Assembly (NCBI GenBank): GCA_900318995.1
Contig: ONMR01000001.1
Coordinates: forward strand, 248,001 to 312,000
Length of the DNA: 64,000 bases
Reading direction: 5' to 3'
Source: an uncultured Prevotellaceae bacterium
GTDB lineage: Bacteria > Bacteroidota > Bacteroidia > Bacteroidales > Bacteroidaceae
Below are positions 52,623-61,265 of this stretch, one piece after another (the first letter of the stretch is position 1; the number at the start of each line of letters is the position of its first letter). The notes under the pieces were generated by a model. That model made no database searches and had not been told where the DNA came from. It saw only the letters and a list, made by a program, of their open reading frames with translations. The position numbers and the translations under genes are program-made.

Positions 52623-54335
52623 ATGAAAAAATTACGTTTGTTTATCGTTGCCGTCTTGGCAGTTCTGCCGATGATGGCTTTTGCCGGAAAAGCTAAAGTA
52701 CTTAAGATTGATTTCAAGAATCCCATTGCCGAGCGTAAGTCGGGAGGCTCATCTATGGACCTTATGTCTATCGTTAACGGAACCCCCGGCTCTGTAACGC
52801 TGCTCAGCTACATAAGCGCTATCGACGCTGCAGCTCAGGACAAGAACATAGGCATGATCTATATGACGCCCGAAAACGTCTCATGCGGAACTGCCCAGCT
52901 GGAGGAGTTGCGTGCCGCCCTGGAGCGTTTCCGTAAGGCTGGCAAGCCTATCGTGGCATACTGTGAGAATTTCAGCAACGGATCCTATTATCTGGCATCG
53001 GTGGCCGACAAGGTCATCCTGGACCCGGCATCCGAGAGCATGATTACCGGCGTTGGTACCCAGATGATTTTCCTCAAGGATGTTCTGGATGCCCTGGGCG
53101 TAGATGTCCAGCTTATCCGTCACGGCAAGTACAAGGCTGCCGGAGAGATGTATACACGCAGTGAGGCCAGCCCCGAGAACCGCTTACAGAACGAGGTCCT
53201 GGTAGGTTCAATCTGGAAAACCATCTCAACGCAGATTGCAGCATCACGCGGATGCACCCCGGAGCAGTTCAACCAATGGGTTGAGAACCTGGACATGATC
53301 CATGCCGCCGATTACAAGGCTAAAGGTCTGGTTGACGAGACATGGTACAAGGATGAGGTTGACAAGTATCTCTGTGAGCAGAACGGAGTGAGCAAAATAT
53401 CGGAGGTAAGCTTTGTCAAGATAAACAAGTATGCCTCAAAGCTCAAGAAAGGCAGCCGCAAGAACAAGATTGCAGTAGTCTATGCAGACGGCGAGATTGT
53501 CAATTCCGGATCGGATGCCGATATCGTGGGCTCCAAGATGGCCAACACCCTGCGCAAGGTACGTGAGGACAAGAAGGTCAAGGCTGTGGTATTCCGTGTA
53601 AACTCACCTGGAGGAAGCGCTCAGGCTGCCGAGGCTATCAGGCATGAGCTGCAGCTGCTGCGTGCCGAGAAACCGGTCATTGTCAGTTTTGGTGACTATG
53701 CCGCATCGGGCGGTTACTGGATATCGGCCGAGTCAGACTACATATTCTCTGACTACAACACCCTGACAGGTTCAATTGGCGTGTTCGGACTTATTCCCAG
53801 CGTGGGCAATGCCATCCGCAAGAATCTCAAGGTCAACATAGAGACCGTGGGTACCACATCGCACAGCGATATGATGAGCGGCATGCGTAAGCTCAATGAC
53901 CAGGAGGTTGAGTATGTCCAGCGTCAGATAGAGAAGATATACGATGACTTTACCAGCCTGGTATCCAACGGCCGCGGAATGTCCAAGGACAGTGTCGATG
54001 CCATTGGCCAGGGCCGTGTATGGTCTGGTGCCGATGCCATGCGCATAGGCCTGGTTGACAAGCAGGGCGGCATTCAGGATGCAATTGATTATGCAGCTCA
54101 GAAAGTTGGTCTCAGCAAGGAGGATTATCGCCTGAGCATATATCCCGTTGCCAAGGAGGTATCGCTCCTGCAGATGCTCTCGGGCGGTGCATCCGATGAC
54201 CCGGAAGAGACACTTACCACCAGCGTGGAGTCTCAGCCTTCGCTCACAGACCTGTTCCCTGCTATTGCCCGTATGCGTGAGCTCCGCACTCCTTCCATGA
54301 TGCTCCGTATGGAGAGCATGATGGAAATCAAGTAG
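52623..54335 (+). CDS. sppA: Signal peptide peptidase SppA (67-kDa type)
   Basis: A 570-residue envelope protease that degrades cleaved signal peptides in the membrane. An N-terminal signal/anchor helix is visible. Two S49 domains are present: the first carries the general-base lysine (K171 in RHGKYKAAGEMYTRSEASPENR) and the second the nucleophile S362 in YAASGGYWISAES, with RVNSPGGSAQAAEAIRHEL in between. Length and motifs are standard for the long, tandem-domain form. It is co-directional with the S41 gene upstream. Confidence 0.94.
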   Translation: MKKLRLFIVAVLAVLPMMAFAGKAKVLKIDFKNPIAERKSGGSSMDLMSIVNGTPGSVTLLSYISAIDAAAQDKNIGMIYMTPENVSCGTAQLEELRAALERFRKAGKPIVAYCENFSNGSYYLASVADKVILDPASESMITGVGTQMIFLKDVLDALGVDVQLIRHGKYKAAGEMYTRSEASPENRLQNEVLVGSIWKTISTQIAASRGCTPEQFNQWVENLDMIHAADYKAKGLVDETWYKDEVDKYLCEQNGVSKISEVSFVKINKYASKLKKGSRKNKIAVVYADGEIVNSGSDADIVGSKMANTLRKVREDKKVKAVVFRVNSPGGSAQAAEAIRHELQLLRAEKPVIVSFGDYAASGGYWISAESDYIFSDYNTLTGSIGVFGLIPSVGNAIRKNLKVNIETVGTTSHSDMMSGMRKLNDQEVEYVQRQIEKIYDDFTSLVSNGRGMSKDSVDAIGQGRVWSGADAMRIGLVDKQGGIQDAIDYAAQKVGLSKEDYRLSIYPVAKEVSLLQMLSGGASDDPEETLTTSVESQPSLTDLFPAIARMRELRTPSMMLRMESMMEIK

Positions 54336-54338
54336 GGC

Positions 54339-54370
54339 TTGGTTGGTGTCATAAAAAGAACTACTTTTGC
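54339..54370 (+). promoter_or_regulatory. Promoter of tRNA-Leu
   Basis: TTGG (54339-54342), 20 bases, then TACTTTTG (54363-54370), 34 bases before the tRNA. It fits the Bacteroides promoter pattern. Confidence 0.7.
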
Positions 54371-54404
54371 AGCGCGTTCCAGATAGGGGACGCGCTTTGC
54401 CAGG

Positions 54405-54485
54405 CGGGCGTGGCGGAATTGGTAGACGCGCTAGACTTAGGATCTAGTATCTTAGATGTGTAGGTTCGAGTCCTATCGCCCGTAC
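54405..54485 (+). tRNA. tRNA-Leu (TAG)
   Basis: An 81-nt class II tRNA: acceptor GCGGGCG pairs with CGCCCGT, the anticodon loop CTTAGGA gives TAG, and a variable arm is present before GTAGG-TTCGAGT-CCTAT. It is followed immediately by a strong hairpin. CCA is not encoded. Confidence 0.93.
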
Positions 54486-54527
54486 AAACAGAAAAGGTGG
54501 CCGTATAGCCACCTTTTCTGTTTGTAT
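54484..54527. terminator. Bidirectional terminator after tRNA-Leu
   Basis: A perfect 19-bp inverted repeat, TACAAACAGAAAAGGTGGC at 54484-54502 with its complement at 54509-54527, around a 6-base loop. It has A/T runs on both sides and ends 24 bases past the convergent gene's stop. Confidence 0.9.
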
Positions 54528-54550
54528 GGGCTTTGGGTAACGGCTCTTCA

Positions 54551-57352
54551 TCAAAACTCTTTATCCAGGATGTATGGCATGCCTGATGCGGTGATGCCAG
54601 CTCCGCTGACGTTAAATTTCCTGCTGTAGGAGTTGTTGTAGAATTCTATCTCGGCCTTGCCGTTTTCATCGGCTATGACATTGGGGTTCCAGTATAGTGT
54701 GCGCCGGTAATCCACATCACCTGTCACGGCACCGTTGGGATATTCAGGTGAGTAGAACTCATGGCTGTTGCTGAACCCCTGCATCGTTGTTACACGTCTG
54801 CCCAGATTGAATCTGTCCGGGTTGTCGGTCATACGGTGAACGGCCTTGAGTTTGATATCCATCAGTACCATCCTGTCTCCAAAGTTACCTGTCCTGCTGG
54901 TAGAAACGTTCTGTACGGCGCTGTACTGGTTCAGATAATTCAGGTAGTCTGGTGCATAATCTCCTATTTCAGACTTGTTCTTAAGGTCATCAAACACCAA
55001 TATGCTCTCAATATCCTGAGTATCTATTTTCCACGGTTTGGAATATTTACCGCTTGTATAGAATCCTCTGTCATCATGCACGTAACAGAGCACTAGGTTA
55101 CCGTTGATCCTGAAATTATTGTCTTCCACATAGATATAGTTCTTATTGGGATCATAATTAAGAATGGATTCACTCTTACTCTTGTTAAAGTAATAAGTAC
55201 TCATGTATGTTAAATTTTCATCAATGTGGCTATAGTGCTCATAGTCATATCTGTAATCCAGATAGTTGGTGTAATTGAAAAGGTATTCATCACTGTATAA
55301 ATAATCCAATGCAGCGCTCAAATCAATAGGTGTTTGTACAGAATAACCCTTATCAATCAGATAACCGGACAGATTTGTCGAATGGTTACCCAGATCAAGC
55401 TCCTTATCAACATCCTTTTCAACATCAAAAGACTTGAATGTGAAATAGTCCACATACTTGCGGTTTCCGTCAATGCGTATCGTGGGCAGTACAAGCCCCT
55501 CGGACTCATTAATGATTGCGGGATAATCCTTAAGCGTGCCACCTTGGGCTTTATCTTGGGCGTCTGCTATGGGGCTTTTGACTGACCAACCCGGCTGAAG
55601 CTCCTGCCTGCTGAATGCCCTTGCCTCTGGCAGCATAGCTCTGTCCAGACGTATCTTGGCTTCAGGCTCATTCTGGTTCCTGGCCTTGGTAAGGCGCATG
55701 GTCAGGTCTGCCTTGCCGTAGAAATCATTCATGTCAAACCCAAAGTAACCGTTCTTGTCAGTTACAAACTGCCCGTATTCAACAGTCTCACCATCACGGG
55801 GTGATATTGCCACATACACCTTGACATCATCCATGGCGCGGTCCCTTGTAATGCGGTTGGTCATTATCATTCCGTTAAGACTCAGACTGGTCTCCATCCT
55901 GCGCTTCTCTGTGAACACCTTGTTATCTGTCATATACTCCCAGTCATAGCGTTCCCAACCTTGTACCATACAGAGTAGGTCCAGATCCTTGAGATGCTGT
56001 TTGTCGGCAGACTCAAAATAGTATGAAGGATTTTGTATGAATCCCTTCAGGTCTGATGTGAGCAGAAAATCAGTAAGCAGGTTGTCTGCGTACTGTGTAC
56101 CATAATCAGATGCATCGCGCACTGAAACGCAGAAACGGTCATGCAGCGGTTTTCCGTTCTTGTCCTTCAGTTGGAAAGTAAGACGCATCTTCCCGAATGA
56201 ATCATAATGACGCTTATCGGTCTTGACATCAATTGTGGGCGGTACATACTTAAGGTTGCCGTTATATACACTACGTGCCGAAAGTACCTCGCCCCTGTCA
56301 GTAAACAGAACGATACGGCATACACCAGCCGGCCATTCTTTGGTGTCAATTGATAGCCTGTACTCCTTACCGTCCATATTCAGCTCATTGAACGCCACCA
56401 ACTCACCCCTGCAGGTAACGGTGACTCCTATTGTCTGCTCCCTCCTTGACTGAGAACGGTTTATATCAAGCGTAAGAATGTTTTTGCGGTCATCCATATC
56501 GGCCTTCATTACATAACCGCTACCCTTGGCCAATGGCAGTGCTGAGGAGAATTTCCTGCCGTTAAACTCAAACGTAGCATCTGTACGTCTCCTGCCTGGT
56601 ATTATATCAAATGACCCCATTCCTTCATGACCGCTTTCGGCTACTATCTTTTGGCCGTCATCAGTCACTATCGAAAGCTTGCCCTGCAATCCGGCTCCAT
56701 TGCCGTCAACGGCCTTGAATGCAACCCGGCTAGGCAATCCGCTTACAAGATTGCCGCCTTCAGGGTAGAATGTAACATTCACATCACGCAGTTTCTCCAT
56801 GTCGGGGCGCTCCTGCCCATATCTGTCCGGGTCCGATACTATGGTGGGATTGCTGAAATCGCCCTCCTGATCCGGAGTCTGATACACCGGCAGCACACGT
56901 GAGAATATAATGTCCGGTTCAAAATTCAGCATGTACTGCGTGTATGCCCTGACCTCATAATAACCACTGGGATACGGACGTACGCCGCGCAGTTGGCGCG
57001 CCTGCCCGGTAGCATAGTCTACAAGCTGTATGCGGCCGTCTGCCTGTCCGGCTACTATCTTAAGTTTCTGCTGCTGTAGCAGTACACCGCTTGGGGATAG
57101 CAGATCCACATACAGCACACCGGACTCTGACCTGCCCAGGTTTGATGATTTGACCACGAAAGCCTTAAACCAGATGTCATCACCCTGATAATAGGATGTG
57201 TTGTCAAACTGTAGATATACCTTCTCCTGAGGAAACAGCTCATTGAATTGGTGGATGTTTCCGGCAAAACGCATAAGCGATTCATTATCGGCCATTGTCC
57301 TACCTTCTGAAAACAGTGCCGCACATACAATAAAAAGAACCAATCTTCTCAT
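54551..57352 (-). CDS. Large secreted MG2-domain protein
   Basis: A 933-residue exported protein (signal about 1-21). Residues 36-160 match an MG2-like macroglobulin domain of Bacteroidales proteins (FPQEKVYLQFDNTSYYQGDDIWFKAFVV...GYYEVRAYTQYMLN). Further beta domains follow, with TVTCRGELVAFNELN and MTLMRLTKARNQNE-type segments. Near the C-terminus is the phrase DYRRTLYWNPNVIADENGKAEIEFYNNSYSRKFNVSGAGIT, shared by this family and reminiscent of TonB-dependent plug/receptor-linked proteins. No enzymatic motif was found. Upstream, a -7 box (57389) and the 20-bp element (57431) mark it as the target of the neighbouring regulator. It may work in envelope stress or nutrient surface binding, which is inference. 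Confidence 0.75.
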   Translation of the reverse strand: MRRLVLFIVCAALFSEGRTMADNESLMRFAGNIHQFNELFPQEKVYLQFDNTSYYQGDDIWFKAFVVKSSNLGRSESGVLYVDLLSPSGVLLQQQKLKIVAGQADGRIQLVDYATGQARQLRGVRPYPSGYYEVRAYTQYMLNFEPDIIFSRVLPVYQTPDQEGDFSNPTIVSDPDRYGQERPDMEKLRDVNVTFYPEGGNLVSGLPSRVAFKAVDGNGAGLQGKLSIVTDDGQKIVAESGHEGMGSFDIIPGRRRTDATFEFNGRKFSSALPLAKGSGYVMKADMDDRKNILTLDINRSQSRREQTIGVTVTCRGELVAFNELNMDGKEYRLSIDTKEWPAGVCRIVLFTDRGEVLSARSVYNGNLKYVPPTIDVKTDKRHYDSFGKMRLTFQLKDKNGKPLHDRFCVSVRDASDYGTQYADNLLTDFLLTSDLKGFIQNPSYYFESADKQHLKDLDLLCMVQGWERYDWEYMTDNKVFTEKRRMETSLSLNGMIMTNRITRDRAMDDVKVYVAISPRDGETVEYGQFVTDKNGYFGFDMNDFYGKADLTMRLTKARNQNEPEAKIRLDRAMLPEARAFSRQELQPGWSVKSPIADAQDKAQGGTLKDYPAIINESEGLVLPTIRIDGNRKYVDYFTFKSFDVEKDVDKELDLGNHSTNLSGYLIDKGYSVQTPIDLSAALDYLYSDEYLFNYTNYLDYRYDYEHYSHIDENLTYMSTYYFNKSKSESILNYDPNKNYIYVEDNNFRINGNLVLCYVHDDRGFYTSGKYSKPWKIDTQDIESILVFDDLKNKSEIGDYAPDYLNYLNQYSAVQNVSTSRTGNFGDRMVLMDIKLKAVHRMTDNPDRFNLGRRVTTMQGFSNSHEFYSPEYPNGAVTGDVDYRRTLYWNPNVIADENGKAEIEFYNNSYSRKFNVSGAGITASGMPYILDKEF

Positions 57353-57388
57353 AAGCCAAGCAGTTAATTTCTTGTCTACTTTTTGTCA

Positions 57389-57396
57389 CAAAAGTA
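57389..57396 (-). promoter_or_regulatory. -7 element of the MG2-domain gene
   Basis: On the minus strand the bases read TACTTTTG, matching TAnnTTTG, 36 bases before the ATG at 57352. No TTTG -33 box is seen at the usual distance, which fits a promoter that needs an activator. Confidence 0.65.
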
Positions 57397-57430
57397 GGTG
57401 CAATATGTCATACAATGGCGGTGGAGCTTG

Positions 57431-57450
57431 GGACAAAATCGGGACAAATG
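57431..57450 (-). promoter_or_regulatory. 20-bp tandem element upstream of the MG2-domain gene
   Basis: Plus-strand sequence GGACAAAATCGGGACAAATG contains two GGACAAA copies 11 bp apart. It is identical to 59199-59218 and begins 34 bp past the -7 box of this promoter, the same distance as at the regulator promoter. Confidence 0.75.
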
Positions 57451-57479
57451 CCCTTAGCCGTATGCCTGACGCGTGACTT

Positions 57480-59135
57480 TCAGCAAAAAAGAGAATAATA
57501 GTCTGGATTTCTTTTACTGAACCTGTACTTACGTTTCCTGATTGCATCGGCAGTTACGTTACCCAATAGCTTTGCAACCAGTTCATTCTTAAAGTGCATA
57601 GCTGACAACAACAACGTCAGGGATTCTTCTGTATCTATTCCGGGATACTCTATCTGCATATCTGCAATAGTATCGCTGAATGAGTGCTTGATGGTTTCAA
57701 TGACCATAGCCTTCTTGCTGGAGTCCAGCTCTTGACCTAAGGAATCGGATGTAAGTGTTCTGAACGCTTCACTATTATAAAAGTACTTCTTGTTTATTTC
57801 TATCCTGTGCCGATACAGATTCATCAGTACGGCACGCGCCCCGGGGTCAGTTTGGGACTGTTCTCTTACCCTGGATTCAAGAATGGAAATGCTGCTTCGG
57901 CGTATTTCCTGTTCCAATCTGATAAGTTCCTCCTGTTTTTCTATAATGCGTTTCTTCTCCCTGTTCTTGAACAGGACGTATATAAGAACCGTAATAATGG
58001 TTATGGCAATGAAAGAGAATATGCAAATCAGGACAAAGCGCTTATGCCTGCCCTGCATTTTCTCTTCCTTAAGTTCTTCTTTGTGCAGGTACTGCAAATC
58101 CATTATCTCCCTCGAATCAGACTGCTTAACCATCTCGATTGAATCTCGAAGTTCGGAGTATTGCTGATGCCACATAAGGACTTCGGCGGCATTGCCTTTT
58201 TTAGCCGAAATCTCTGCCAATCTATCATATATTATTATCCTGGCGTTGGCATCTGATATGTCGGGGATTGATTTTTTGAAGTATAAATACGCGGAATCTA
58301 AATCTTCTGAATAATAAAACGAGGTGGCTTTCATATTGTTGTAAGCTCCCGGTGGGATTGGATTGCTGTTCTTCTCCTTTTGAAAAAACCTTGTTATTGT
58401 AACTGTCCTGAAAGAAGTATCGCCAGGATTATCCAATGATGAAGAATTGTATACGGGGATTTTAAAAAGAGTGTCTGTCCAGGTATTTTCAGCTTCAGAT
58501 ACTTCATTAAGGATAAAAGAGAACTGTGATGACTTTTCGTCCGTATTCTGCACATTTGGATCCTTTAGTCTGGATAAGGCGGAGAAAACTGTTGCATAAT
58601 ATGACAACGATGAATCCTGAATTCTGTCAGCATTGATCCTGCATTTGTAGAATTCATCATAGGCACAGTCATACTTCTTTTTTTCGTAATAGCGGCTACC
58701 AAGGTTCTTCTCAGTCAGCGCATAGTATCTGACAAGCGTATCCGGGAAGAGGTCTTTAGCCTTGAGGTATGCGTAGATGGCAGCATGATTTTTTTTCATT
58801 CTGGAATACACGCACCCTTGTGAGTACCATGCCAAGGCTGCGTGATAACTCTTGCGCCTGGAACCATAATAGTCTGTGGCGGTTATTATAAGGCTGTCTG
58901 ACGAGAATGGCCTTCCCAATTCATAATCAATCTGAGTCTTAAGTATGGCATACAGTGCATTGCTCCGGCGTGATGACGGTAACTGAATAGACGACATGGC
59001 GGAATCGGCTGCATGTATATCAGTTTCCAACAGATTCTCAACCTCTCGCAGACTGCTATTGCTATCACTACATGAAATCAGAACTGAAATGCACAATAAG
59101 TTTAATAAAAACAATAATCCTTTGCTGCCTCTCAT
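57480..59135 (-). CDS. Membrane-spanning TPR/HTH regulator (lipobox + one transmembrane helix)
   Basis: A 551-residue protein, starting at ATG 59135. An earlier frame start would lie across the promoter. It has a lipobox-like SVLISC (Cys 22), TPR-like helical repeats at about 90-330 (ALAWYSQGCVYSRMKKNHAAIYAYLKAKDLFPDT), and one transmembrane helix at about 367-389 (FVLICIFSFIAITIITVLIY). A coiled-coil linker follows, then a C-terminal helix-turn-helix-like segment at about 505-542 (LTLLLSAMHFKNELVAKLLGNVTADAIRKRKYRFSKRN). This resembles Bacteroidales one-component regulators related to the LuxR-like DUF6377 group. Periplasmic sensing by TPRs with DNA binding in the cytoplasm is the simple reading. 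Confidence 0.7.
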   Translation of the reverse strand: MRGSKGLLFLLNLLCISVLISCSDSNSSLREVENLLETDIHAADSAMSSIQLPSSRRSNALYAILKTQIDYELGRPFSSDSLIITATDYYGSRRKSYHAALAWYSQGCVYSRMKKNHAAIYAYLKAKDLFPDTLVRYYALTEKNLGSRYYEKKKYDCAYDEFYKCRINADRIQDSSLSYYATVFSALSRLKDPNVQNTDEKSSQFSFILNEVSEAENTWTDTLFKIPVYNSSSLDNPGDTSFRTVTITRFFQKEKNSNPIPPGAYNNMKATSFYYSEDLDSAYLYFKKSIPDISDANARIIIYDRLAEISAKKGNAAEVLMWHQQYSELRDSIEMVKQSDSREIMDLQYLHKEELKEEKMQGRHKRFVLICIFSFIAITIITVLIYVLFKNREKKRIIEKQEELIRLEQEIRRSSISILESRVREQSQTDPGARAVLMNLYRHRIEINKKYFYNSEAFRTLTSDSLGQELDSSKKAMVIETIKHSFSDTIADMQIEYPGIDTEESLTLLLSAMHFKNELVAKLLGNVTADAIRKRKYRFSKRNPDYYSLFC

Positions 59136-59156
59136 TTGTTTTTCAAAACGTTTGAA

Positions 59157-59164
59157 CAAATATA
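59157..59164 (-). promoter_or_regulatory. -7 element of the regulator gene
   Basis: On the minus strand the bases read TATATTTG, matching TAnnTTTG, 21 bases before the ATG at 59135. No -33 box is obvious. Confidence 0.65.
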
Positions 59165-59198
59165 TGGATAATAACTGAGTTTGTTTTACTCCCGGGCA

Positions 59199-59218
59199 GG
59201 ACAAAATCGGGACAAATG
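59199..59218 (-). promoter_or_regulatory. 20-bp tandem element upstream of the regulator gene
   Basis: Plus strand GGACAAAATCGGGACAAATG, identical to 57431-57450, begins 34 bp past the -7 box of this promoter. The identity of sequence and distance indicates a common activator-binding site. Confidence 0.8.
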
Positions 59219-59274
59219 GCCGGAGCGGGTGGCATCTTAATAACCGTAAGCGGCACAGGAACTTACTTTTTTAC

Positions 59275-59282
59275 TATTTTTG
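59275..59282 (+). promoter_or_regulatory. -7 element of murF
   Basis: TATTTTTG fits TAnnTTTG but ends only seven bases before the murF ATG, so the transcript would have a very short leader. Confidence 0.5.
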
Positions 59283-59289
59283 CGGTAAT

Positions 59290-60594
59290 ATGACAATTGA
59301 GGAGATTTACAGCAGGTTAAGTGAGTGCGCCGGGGTTACTACCGACAGCCGCAAGTGCGGGCCGGGACTGATGTTCTTTGCTCTTAAGGGTGAGCGTTTT
59401 GACGGCAATGAGTTTGTGCGCGGAGCGTTGGAGCAGGGCTGTCCGTATGCCGTTATGGATAATGCCGGCCTTTATGATGCGGCCGATGGGCGTATGATAC
59501 TGGTGGATAATGTGCTGTTAACCCTGCAACAGGTAGCCGCTTTGCATAGGCGCCGGTTAGGGACGCCTGTTATAGGCATTACCGGAACCAACGGTAAGAC
59601 CACCACCAAGGAACTTACCAATGCCGTGATGGGCACAACTTACAATGTGCTCTGTACTCAGGGTAATCTCAATAATTCAATAGGTGTTCCGCTAACTGTC
59701 CTGGGACTTAAGCCGGAGCATCAGTATGCCATTGTGGAGATGGGGGCAAGCCATCCCGGTGATATAAGGGAACTTGTAGAGGTCAGCCAGCCTGACTACG
59801 GACTGATTACCAATGTGGGTAAGGCCCATCTGCTGGGATTCGGGTCATTTGAGGGCGTAAAGCGTACCAAGGGTGAACTCTATGACTGGCTGCGTGAGCA
59901 TAAAGGGACGGCATTCGTTAACCGAGACAATGAGCATCTGCAGCAGATGTGCCAGGGGCTGCCAATGATTGAGTACGGCAAACCCGGGCAGGACGGACTG
60001 CTGGTTGAGGGCAATGTGCTGGAGTGTAACCCGTTTGTAAAGTTCCGCTGGCGCAGAGGCAGCGGGCAGTGGCATACGGTCCAGACCAACCTGATAGGGG
60101 CTTATAATGTTGACAATGCACTGGCCGCAATAACCGTAGGTCTGCATTTCGGGGTTACCGAGGCTGATGCATCGGCCGCCGTTGCCGGATACAAGCCTCA
60201 GAACAACCGCTCACAGCTTACTGAGACCGGGCGCAATCATCTGGTTGTGGATGCATATAACGCCAATCCCACCAGTATGGCCGCTGCAATTGATAATTTC
60301 AGCATGATCCAGGCACAGGACAAGATGCTGATTCTGGGTGATATGCGTGAACTGGGCGATGTGTCGCAGGCCGAGCATATCAACATCGTGGATTTGCTCA
60401 AACGTAAGGGGTTCACTCAGGTATGGCTTGTGGGAAGTGAGTTCGGAAAGGCAGCCCAGGGGGCTGGATTCAGACTATTCCCGGATGTGGAGGCTGTAAA
60501 CGTGGCGCTCAGTAAAGAGCCCGTTGCAGGAAAGACTATCCTGATAAAGGGTTCCAACAGTATAGGATTAACCAAAACAATAACCAATTTATAA
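59290..60594 (+). CDS. murF: UDP-MurNAc-tripeptide: D-Ala-D-Ala ligase MurF
   Basis: Cytoplasmic Mur ligase adding D-Ala-D-Ala to UDP-MurNAc-tripeptide, the last cytoplasmic step before MraY. The N-terminal domain has GVTTDSRKCGPGLMFFALKGERFDGNEF, the ATP loop is [14 protein letters not shown], followed by VEMGASHPGDIRELVEV and the C-terminal VDAYNANPTSMAAAI. The length of 434 residues is normal. It is outside the dcw cluster, as is common in Bacteroidales. The SGNH gene follows after two bases. Confidence 0.95.
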   Translation: MTIEEIYSRLSECAGVTTDSRKCGPGLMFFALKGERFDGNEFVRGALEQGCPYAVMDNAGLYDAADGRMILVDNVLLTLQQVAALHRRRLGTPVIGITGTNGKTTTKELTNAVMGTTYNVLCTQGNLNNSIGVPLTVLGLKPEHQYAIVEMGASHPGDIRELVEVSQPDYGLITNVGKAHLLGFGSFEGVKRTKGELYDWLREHKGTAFVNRDNEHLQQMCQGLPMIEYGKPGQDGLLVEGNVLECNPFVKFRWRRGSGQWHTVQTNLIGAYNVDNALAAITVGLHFGVTEADASAAVAGYKPQNNRSQLTETGRNHLVVDAYNANPTSMAAAIDNFSMIQAQDKMLILGDMRELGDVSQAEHINIVDLLKRKGFTQVWLVGSEFGKAAQGAGFRLFPDVEAVNVALSKEPVAGKTILIKGSNSIGLTKTITNL

Positions 60595-60596
60595 TT

Positions 60597-61265
60597 ATGA
60601 AGAAACTGGCAGTTCTTTTTGCATGTGTTATGTTGTGCGGCGTGATGTCCGCACAGTTGAAAGTCTCCGTTATGGGTGACTCTTACTCTACATTTACGGG
60701 TTCCATGCCCAGGTATTATGACACATTCTATCCCAACCAGTTCTGCGGTGTTACAGAGCAGAGCCAGCAGTGGTGGGCTCAGGTTATCGAGAAGAACGGA
60801 TGGGTGCTTGAAAAGAATGACTCATGGTCAGGCAGTACGGTTTGCTGCCGCGGTTACAATCATGACGATTACTCTGACCGCGCATTCGTGACCCGTCTGA
60901 ACTGCATCGGCGCTCCCGATATCCTGTTCATATTCGGAGGTACCAATGATGACTGGACACACGAGCCTTTCGGCGACTACAAGTACTCCGGCTGGACCAA
61001 GGAGGATCTCTATTTCTACCGTCCGGCTTTTGCTTATCTGCTTGACAACCTTAAGAAGCTGTATCCCAAGATGAAGATCTACTCACTGCTTAACGACGGT
61101 ATGAGTGAGAACCTGGGTGAGTCAATGAGGGAGATATGCAAGCACTACGGTGTGCCCGTAATTGCAGTGGAGGGCATTGAGAAGCGCATGAACCATCCTA
61201 CCGCCGCCGGTATGACCAAGATTGCCGAGCAGGTACAGGCTTTCCTGGACGCTGAGAAGAAGTGA
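60597..61265 (+). CDS. SGNH/GDSL hydrolase-like secreted protein
   Basis: A 222-residue exported protein (signal about 1-20) with the GDSL-type block I VSVMGDSYSTF, block III-like IFGGTNDDW, and a C-terminal HPTAAGM where D-x-x-H would be expected; here NHPTAAGM holds the histidine. The esterase substrate is unknown. It sits between murF and folP with gaps of two and one bases, so it is co-transcribed with them. This argues for a cell-wall or envelope role, but only by context. Confidence 0.8.
   Translation: MKKLAVLFACVMLCGVMSAQLKVSVMGDSYSTFTGSMPRYYDTFYPNQFCGVTEQSQQWWAQVIEKNGWVLEKNDSWSGSTVCCRGYNHDDYSDRAFVTRLNCIGAPDILFIFGGTNDDWTHEPFGDYKYSGWTKEDLYFYRPAFAYLLDNLKKLYPKMKIYSLLNDGMSENLGESMREICKHYGVPVIAVEGIEKRMNHPTAAGMTKIAEQVQAFLDAEKK

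Follow-up and report, generated by a model that had tools for sequence, protein, structure and literature searches.

A paired element with an 11-bp period as a candidate operator of a predicted membrane-anchored TPR/HTH regulator in uncultured Bacteroidales

The window analysed here is a 64,000-nucleotide stretch of one contig of an uncultured Prevotellaceae bacterium. Near its end, a gene for a TPR-containing protein with a C-terminal helix-turn-helix (HTH) region lies on the minus strand, followed by a gene for a 933-aa protein with a weak MG2-domain likeness and flanked on its other side by the divergent murF (Table 1). The mechanical open reading frame of the regulator begins at a TTG at 59204, and the ATG at 59135 is the likely start codon. 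Of the loci screened for murF, just those of two close relatives, G034 and G036, showed it (G, C and L handles denote genomes, contigs and fetched loci). A 24-nt inverted repeat at 54478-54531 (96% complementary, 6-nt loop) sits between the convergent ends of a 570-aa gene and the MG2 gene, and is probably a two-way terminator.

Table 1. Features of the regulator locus, in window coordinates.
Feature	Position	Strand	Remarks
Target gene, 933-aa protein	54551..57352	(-)	Sub-threshold MG2-domain match, 14.3 bits against a cut-off of 32.8
-7 box TACTTTTG of the MG2-like gene	57389..57396	(-)	Read in the sequence; spacing conserved in the genus
Operator 1 (candidate)	57430..57448	(-)	TTTGTCCC-GAT-TTTGTCCC; past the regulator stop codon, 33 bp upstream of the MG2-gene -7 box
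Regulator gene, 551 aa	57480..59135	(-)	Lipobox (LISC) and TPR-containing part, then a single predicted transmembrane segment and the HTH at the C-terminus
C-terminal HTH region, putative recognition helix TADAIRKRKYRF	57483..57671	(-)	Profile alignment with sigma-4/GerE HTH domains
Predicted single transmembrane segment FVLICIFSFIAITIITVLIYV	57975..58037	(-)	Hydropathy only
-7 box TATATTTG of the regulator gene	59157..59164	(-)	Read in the sequence; spacing conserved in the genus
Operator 2 (candidate)	59198..59216	(-)	TTTGTCCC-GAT-TTTGTCCT; divergent murF/regulator gap, 33 bp upstream of the regulator -7 box
murF, Mur ligase domains, divergent neighbour	59290..60594	(+)	Flank identifies the regulator-less junction in G034

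The same 20-mer, GGACAAAATCGGGACAAATG, occurs at 57431-57450 and 59199-59218, and each copy holds two GGACAAA stretches at an 11-bp period (starts at 57431 and 57442, and at 59199 and 59210), which confirms the initial annotation base by base. On the promoter strand the full element reads TTTGTCCC-N3-TTTGTCCC, the copy at 59216-59198 ending in T. Each 20-mer as first cut lies the reported 34 bp from a TAnnTTTG box, a gap of 33 bp when counted from the full element. Operator 1 thus occupies the space between the stop codon of the regulator gene and the start of the MG2 gene. The pair forms the longest direct repeat in 54000-61000 (28 nt, 89%, spacing 1768), and the window contains three element matches at up to three mismatches against 0.45 expected. 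Across the source genome (2.5 Mb, 86.8% complete), exact GGACAAAANNNGGACAAA is found only as the two window copies; at up to two mismatches there are seven matches against six for the reversed control, so the weaker matches are at chance level.

The regulator was compared with 36 relatives, defined as proteins of at least 480 aa in the fetched loci, a subset of all matches. A loose lipobox pattern is present in the first 60 residues of 31 of the 36, and all of them carry one strong hydrophobic segment, located around residue 367 in the window protein. Several relatives pass the Pfam cut-offs for TPR, and the window protein has a sub-threshold TPR_1 match only. No Pfam HTH model passes its cut-off for the regulator or the C-terminal alignment, with a sub-threshold match in one relative (L076). 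A profile of 12 C-termini nevertheless aligns with 13 sigma-4/GerE domains from the same genome (hhalign probability 77.9, E 1.8e-5), against a probability of at most 0.2 for five column-shuffled controls, and an RKRK stretch falls in the recognition-helix position of that alignment. The protein is predicted to be a membrane-anchored one-component regulator, with its TPR part outside, one transmembrane segment and the HTH inside; the outer part would be the one to sense a signal. As a separate observation, the regulator gene (57480-59138) is a mosaic relative to the copy at G034:C4 (L068:5774-7429), mostly 96-100% identical, with divergent stretches (~63-79%) at the end that codes for the N-terminus and around 58320-58480.

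A set of 37 genomes of the genus, the source genome included, was searched for TTTGTCCC-N3-TTTGTCCC with at most one mismatch. This gave 33 element rows in 15 of the 37 genomes, compared with two rows for the reversed pattern; together with the kept box spacing described below, this places the pair far beyond chance, as the initial annotation had judged from the window. Collapsing identical flanks left 30 site sequences, 25 of them promoter-proximal and five distal members of triple arrays. The arrays of G026 and of G012:C53 with G036:C23 stand outside the 25 because their proximal pair has two mismatches, and their proximal-pair boxes lie at 34 and 32 bp.

The search for the element followed by a TAnnTTTG box, which had been proposed as a check, returned a rigid arrangement. 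A TAnnTT[T/C]G box starts 32-34 bp downstream in 21 of the 25 distinct proximal sites, with only one further box elsewhere in their 80-bp windows, and shuffled windows (2000 runs) gave a mean of 0.11 and a maximum of three such sites. No proximal site (0/25) has a box at that distance on the opposite side of the element. Of 93 exact elements on viral contigs, among the matches listed and used as a control, none has the box at 32-34 bp. Four sites miss the strict box. Two of these show a near-box by eye, TACTTTGG at 34 bp in L041 and TATATTGC at 33 bp in L066; L058 lacks a box at the expected distance; and L042 (G017) is an implausible site, where the element adjoins what looks by eye like a tRNA sequence and the genome lacks the regulator. 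In the alignment of the 21 promoters, high information is confined to the half-sites and to the -7 box. The promoters show no conserved -33 box, which extends to the genus the remark that neither window promoter has a good one.

One could suppose that the two window sites merely descend from a recent promoter duplication and share ancestry without function. The window copies do share 20 identical bases, including the 3-base spacer, and the promoters at G034:C4 and G031:C64 are ~71% alike with the MG2 promoter region. Beyond the element, however, there is no clear flank likeness, the best being the 89% over 28 nt. Spacer similarity sorts the 25 sites into 18 groups, 14 of which have the box, so the sites are not one copied promoter. 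Shared ancestry is already disfavoured on these grounds and appears scarcely credible.

Elements in other genera of the family were rejected as parts of the same system. None of 19 distinct exact sites there has a box at 32-34 bp, and no regulator relative (E 1e-5) was found in 18 fetched stretches around such elements, several of them shortened by contig ends; these elements are unrelated or unexplained. Some form TTTGTCCC(A/C)AG arrays with an 11-bp period (L126 and L130 in g3, L143 in g13), with no regulator relative in the fetched stretch and no -7 box at 32-34 bp. In L128, L139 and L142, from three genomes of different genera, TTTGTCCCTCGTTTGTCCC occurs with similar flanks and perhaps marks the end of a mobile element.

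Within the genus, the element is coupled to the regulator gene. Based on a regulator list compiled by hand from the relative search and a search with a profile of the C-terminal domain, 30 of the 33 element rows have a regulator relative or gene piece on the same contig and strand, 22 of them upstream of it and eight behind its 3' end. The gene includes the HTH end in 27 of these 30, always with [RH]KRK, and is a piece without the HTH end in the other three (G031:C64, G034:C2 and G036:C82). The unlinked rows are G034:C8 and G015:C84, whose genomes encode such a regulator elsewhere, and the row in G017.

Searching from the protein side gives a matching picture. Within the genus, the C-terminal-domain profile (A4) has 18 matches, which score 155-219 bits and are spread over 14 genomes; 17 of the 18 are element-linked on their own contig. 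The remaining match, G031:C62, comes from a gene that is split (loci L072 and L081) and covers its C-terminal part; the N-terminal piece and the element would be those on C64, across a contig break. All 14 genomes whose domain match reaches 155 bits have the element, against one of the 23 others (G017), so that it is nearly restricted to genomes with that HTH. The 155-bit cut was chosen after the ranking had been seen; any cut from 120 to 155 bits yields the same genomes, and one at 110 bits would add G014 (domain at 117.5 bits, no element). The next-ranked relative, L089 (G018:C19; 131 bits, IRKRKHK), has no element, nor do relatives at 99-119 bits in the fetched loci (L076-L080). Outside the genus, among the matches listed for 301 family genomes, no domain match exceeds 77 bits.

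The element was not missing upstream of orthologues; its absence there would have spoken against the initial annotation. It lies within 150 bp upstream in 12 of the 18 closest domain relatives and farther upstream, at 518 to 5664 bp with other genes between, in five (counting G031 by the pairing above); in G018:C72 it occurs only behind the 3' end of a gene with an in-frame TAG. Because only these 12 have the element so close, autoregulation would be direct in 12 and at best via an operon in five. Broken or pieced regulator genes recur in the genus, as in G018:C72, the split gene of G031 and the fragment at G034:C2. At G034:C4:4748-4843 and G031:C64:1378-1473, a remnant of a regulator HTH with in-frame stops lies ~40 bp upstream of the element, and an older regulator copy seems to have decayed at both places.

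The presence of the element also follows the type of recognition helix. With the element-linked label assigned by hand, [RH]KRK is found at the HTH end in 17 of 17 element-linked relatives versus one of 19 others. In a full-length tree, the element-bearing clade A (eight rows, including the window) is sister (95/96) to five rows with another helix (KQR or KKR) and no element, and the element label requires four changes against a shuffled mean of 12.4. A tree of the protein body offers only three independent pairs that differ in the element, with HTH type agreeing in two and the same in one (sign test p 0.5), so the association is one of clustering and not of many independent switches, and Fisher values for it exaggerate the independence of the cases. 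In G018:C32, an MG2-gene relative (55%) is followed by a regulator with another C-terminus, and the fetched stretch has no element. The idea that all TPR/HTH relatives have tandem operators with an 11-bp period was rejected: relatives without the element show only scattered 7-of-8 matches (upstream of L076, L078, L095, L096 and L097).

The layout of the sites differs between regulator clades. All eight clade B sites have three direct half-sites (each with at most two mismatches) at an 11-bp period, and in all eight an inverted half-site-like stretch abuts the first half-site, with 0, 0, 1, 2, 2, 3, 3 and 4 mismatches to GGGACAAA. None of the 16 listed sites of other regulators has a third direct half-site within three mismatches (four or more in each); an inverted-like stretch with 2 mismatches occurs 5 bp away in two of these sites (L068, L081). 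The distance from the proximal half-site to the -7 box is kept in both layouts. These patterns bear on the suggestion that some DNA-binding protein other than the TPR/HTH regulator recognises the element. Such a protein could account for L089, which lacks the element, and binding by the regulator is itself deduced from association. Yet the element is found almost only with this domain and next to its gene, its layout changes with the regulator clade, and the source genome has only two exact sites, all of which makes a different binder very unlikely. The same promoter distance and the same kind of regulator recur across the genus; the elements are therefore, as far as sequence comparison can tell, very probably binding sites of the regulator.

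The sister genome G034 provides a natural comparison, in which the regulator gene is precisely absent between the repeats. At G034:C8 (L086:18640-18860 against window 57340-59330), a single element separates adjacent murF and MG2 genes, with murF 97.9% identical to that of the window and the MG2 gene 98.6% identical over its first 356 aa and 99% over 933. The left flank of this element is as at operator 2 and the right flank as at operator 1. The G034 regulator, an 89% identical protein, is encoded at another locus, G034:C4, where it lies 874 bp downstream from an element at the head of a different gene, with the decayed HTH remnant nearby. Both the gene run at the regulator locus and the distant MG2 gene have an element 33 bp from a -7 box, and the regulator gene is present at only one of the two places, which argues for action in trans.

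The composite flanks of this junction could also be read as evidence that the 20-mers act mainly as recombination or att-like repeats at the borders of a mobile cassette with the regulator, their link to promoters being incidental. The lower GC content of the regulator (about 0.39-0.43) than of murF (0.51-0.55) points the same way, although the MG2 gene has stretches that are equally low (0.37-0.41). On the other hand, box spacing and strand are kept at the 21 sites, some of them single elements or heading longer gene runs, and the half-sites stay constant as spacers and flanks vary. Deletion between the 20-bp direct repeats is the simplest origin of the junction and leaves the MG2 gene with its element; insertion is a less simple alternative. 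A cassette of this kind is therefore highly improbable. Mobile carriage of the regulator was separately rejected, as plasmid and phage collections contain no match to it at E 1e-5.

The genes behind the elements appear to share a cellular location. Ten proteins from element-linked loci were scanned: three pass Pfam cut-offs (BspA-type LRR_5 in a 1867-aa protein, Peptidase_S74 and Big_2), three have sub-threshold matches (transglutaminase-like, F5/8 type C and Lcl_C) and four have none. Because of these matches, the MG2-like proteins and N-termini that look signal-like by eye, most targets appear to be surface or secreted proteins. Ten relatives of the MG2 gene occur in the genus at 55% identity or more over at least 660 residues. 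They are adjacent to the regulator in G000, G028 and G012, directly behind it in G003:C88, and at the end of a same-strand gene run behind the element in G027 and G033:C19; by analogy, the relative in G003:C37 would likewise end such a run. The exceptions are G034, which keeps the element with the regulator elsewhere, and G018, with neither. The target may be decaying in G036, where the contig G036:C8 (L376:1-200) opens with what by eye resembles the C-terminus of a transposase, closely followed by an MG2 gene with one in-frame TGA. Separately, the genus shows a great expansion of both the MG2-like family and the family to which a 236-aa gene behind the G034:C4 element belongs; G027, for example, has 23 and 57 matching stretches, respectively.

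In our view the element is probably the operator of the membrane regulator encoded next to it, which would activate its own gene and the neighbouring envelope gene or genes. Two HTH protomers would occupy the two half-sites on the same DNA face, 11 bp or one helical turn from each other, and the upstream element stops 33 bp, or three turns, short of the -7 box (TAnnTTTG). The bound regulator could then assist RNA polymerase where the promoter offers no conserved -33 box, and the result would be a positively autoregulated surface-protein module. We infer activation from position alone. A regulator that binds the same site as a repressor, restraining its own gene and silencing the neighbour, would produce the same coupling of element and regulator, and the sign of regulation cannot be read from sequence data. 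The upstream site, however, stops 33 bp short of the -7 box and does not overlap it, the unconserved -33 region suits a promoter in need of help, and the rigid 32-34 bp spacing suits contact with polymerase; repression is thus unlikely. The common activator-type site of the initial annotation is accordingly still the best reading, given the spacing, the missing -33 box and the link to the recognition helix, with binding and activation themselves deduced. Its proposal that the regulator acts on itself and its neighbour is supported by linkage and can be widened to apparent trans sites at G034:C8 and G015:C84.

Some of the sites head long gene runs, and one regulator clade has the longer array. 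A broader and rather doubtful reading would see a portable module for wiring envelope genes, built around a lipid-anchored TPR one-component regulator, in which HTH type and operator change together, layouts are clade-specific and the operator repeats on either side of the regulator gene also act as recombination points. It draws on the pairing of the RKRK helix with TTTGTCCC half-sites and on other-helix relatives without the element. Within this tentative scheme, the regulator might be lost or moved and its targets stay wired in trans. Should the operator reading hold, surface-protein genes of uncultured Bacteroidales would be linked to a regulator; the genomes concerned are RUG isolates, from the rumen.

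The nearest named family for the regulator is that of the BT_3442-like (DUF6377-like) TPR proteins of Bacteroidales, which it may resemble in its TPR part and predicted single transmembrane helix. Residues 302-543 align weakly with NF053779 (BT3442 family; E 1.3e-6), and the whole-protein score of 27.5 bits is far under the curated cut-off of 940. The relative L094 scores 37.8 bits, four other relatives have no match at 0.01, and sub-threshold DUF6377 matches are seen in three relatives or BT_3442-like proteins (L094, L080 and L165). BT_3442-like TPR matches (E 0.001) occur in 101 of 121 family genomes, one of them above the curated cut-off, and in four of 14 control genomes, two of these archaea; many may reflect TPR likeness alone, because few pass the cut-off and controls match. 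BT_3442 is described as a multi-domain TPR protein whose cluster also contains potential pore-forming proteins and lipoproteins, and the passages on it mention neither an operator nor a regulatory role (PMC2954219). Among the matches listed, searches of the open-access literature likewise yielded no published description of the element, nor any operator or regulatory role for this family, and none of those listed for the half-site strings clearly concerned a regulator site in bacteria. No tandem element with an 11-bp period was found at the 15 of 30 BT_3442-like loci that could be scored, the other 15 having no plus-strand open reading frame. If the operator reading is right, one branch of this TPR family gains a candidate operator and the start of a recognition code.

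Membrane one-component regulators of the ToxR/CadC type combine a sensor, a single transmembrane helix and a DNA-binding domain in one chain. The regulator described here is predicted to have the same three parts in one chain. It differs in their reversed order, with an N-terminal lipobox and TPR part and a C-terminal HTH, and in the apparent class of its HTH.

OmpR/PhoB-type operators such as the pho box consist of direct half-sites with an 11-bp period, and the pho box replaces the -35 box. The element shares the two direct half-sites, the 11-bp period and the position upstream of a promoter. In contrast to the pho box, it is separated from the -7 box by 33 bp and is no substitute for a -35 box. 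The proteins differ as well: the HTH of the regulator aligns with sigma-4/GerE domains, a winged helix is not indicated, and Pfam scans of the regulator and of the C-terminal alignment gave no receiver or winged-helix response-regulator match.

Bacteroides housekeeping promoters have a -33/-7 architecture. Their -7 consensus is TAnnTTTG (PMC12632263). The promoters described here have the same -7 box, with the paired element upstream and no conserved -33 box. Fixed site spacing together with a weak or absent -33 box is the pattern of activator-dependent promoters, and it is found here at 21 of 25 sites, at 32-34 bp. If the proposed reading is correct, this arrangement would provide a testable rule for the placement of upstream activators on Bacteroidota promoters without a -33 box.
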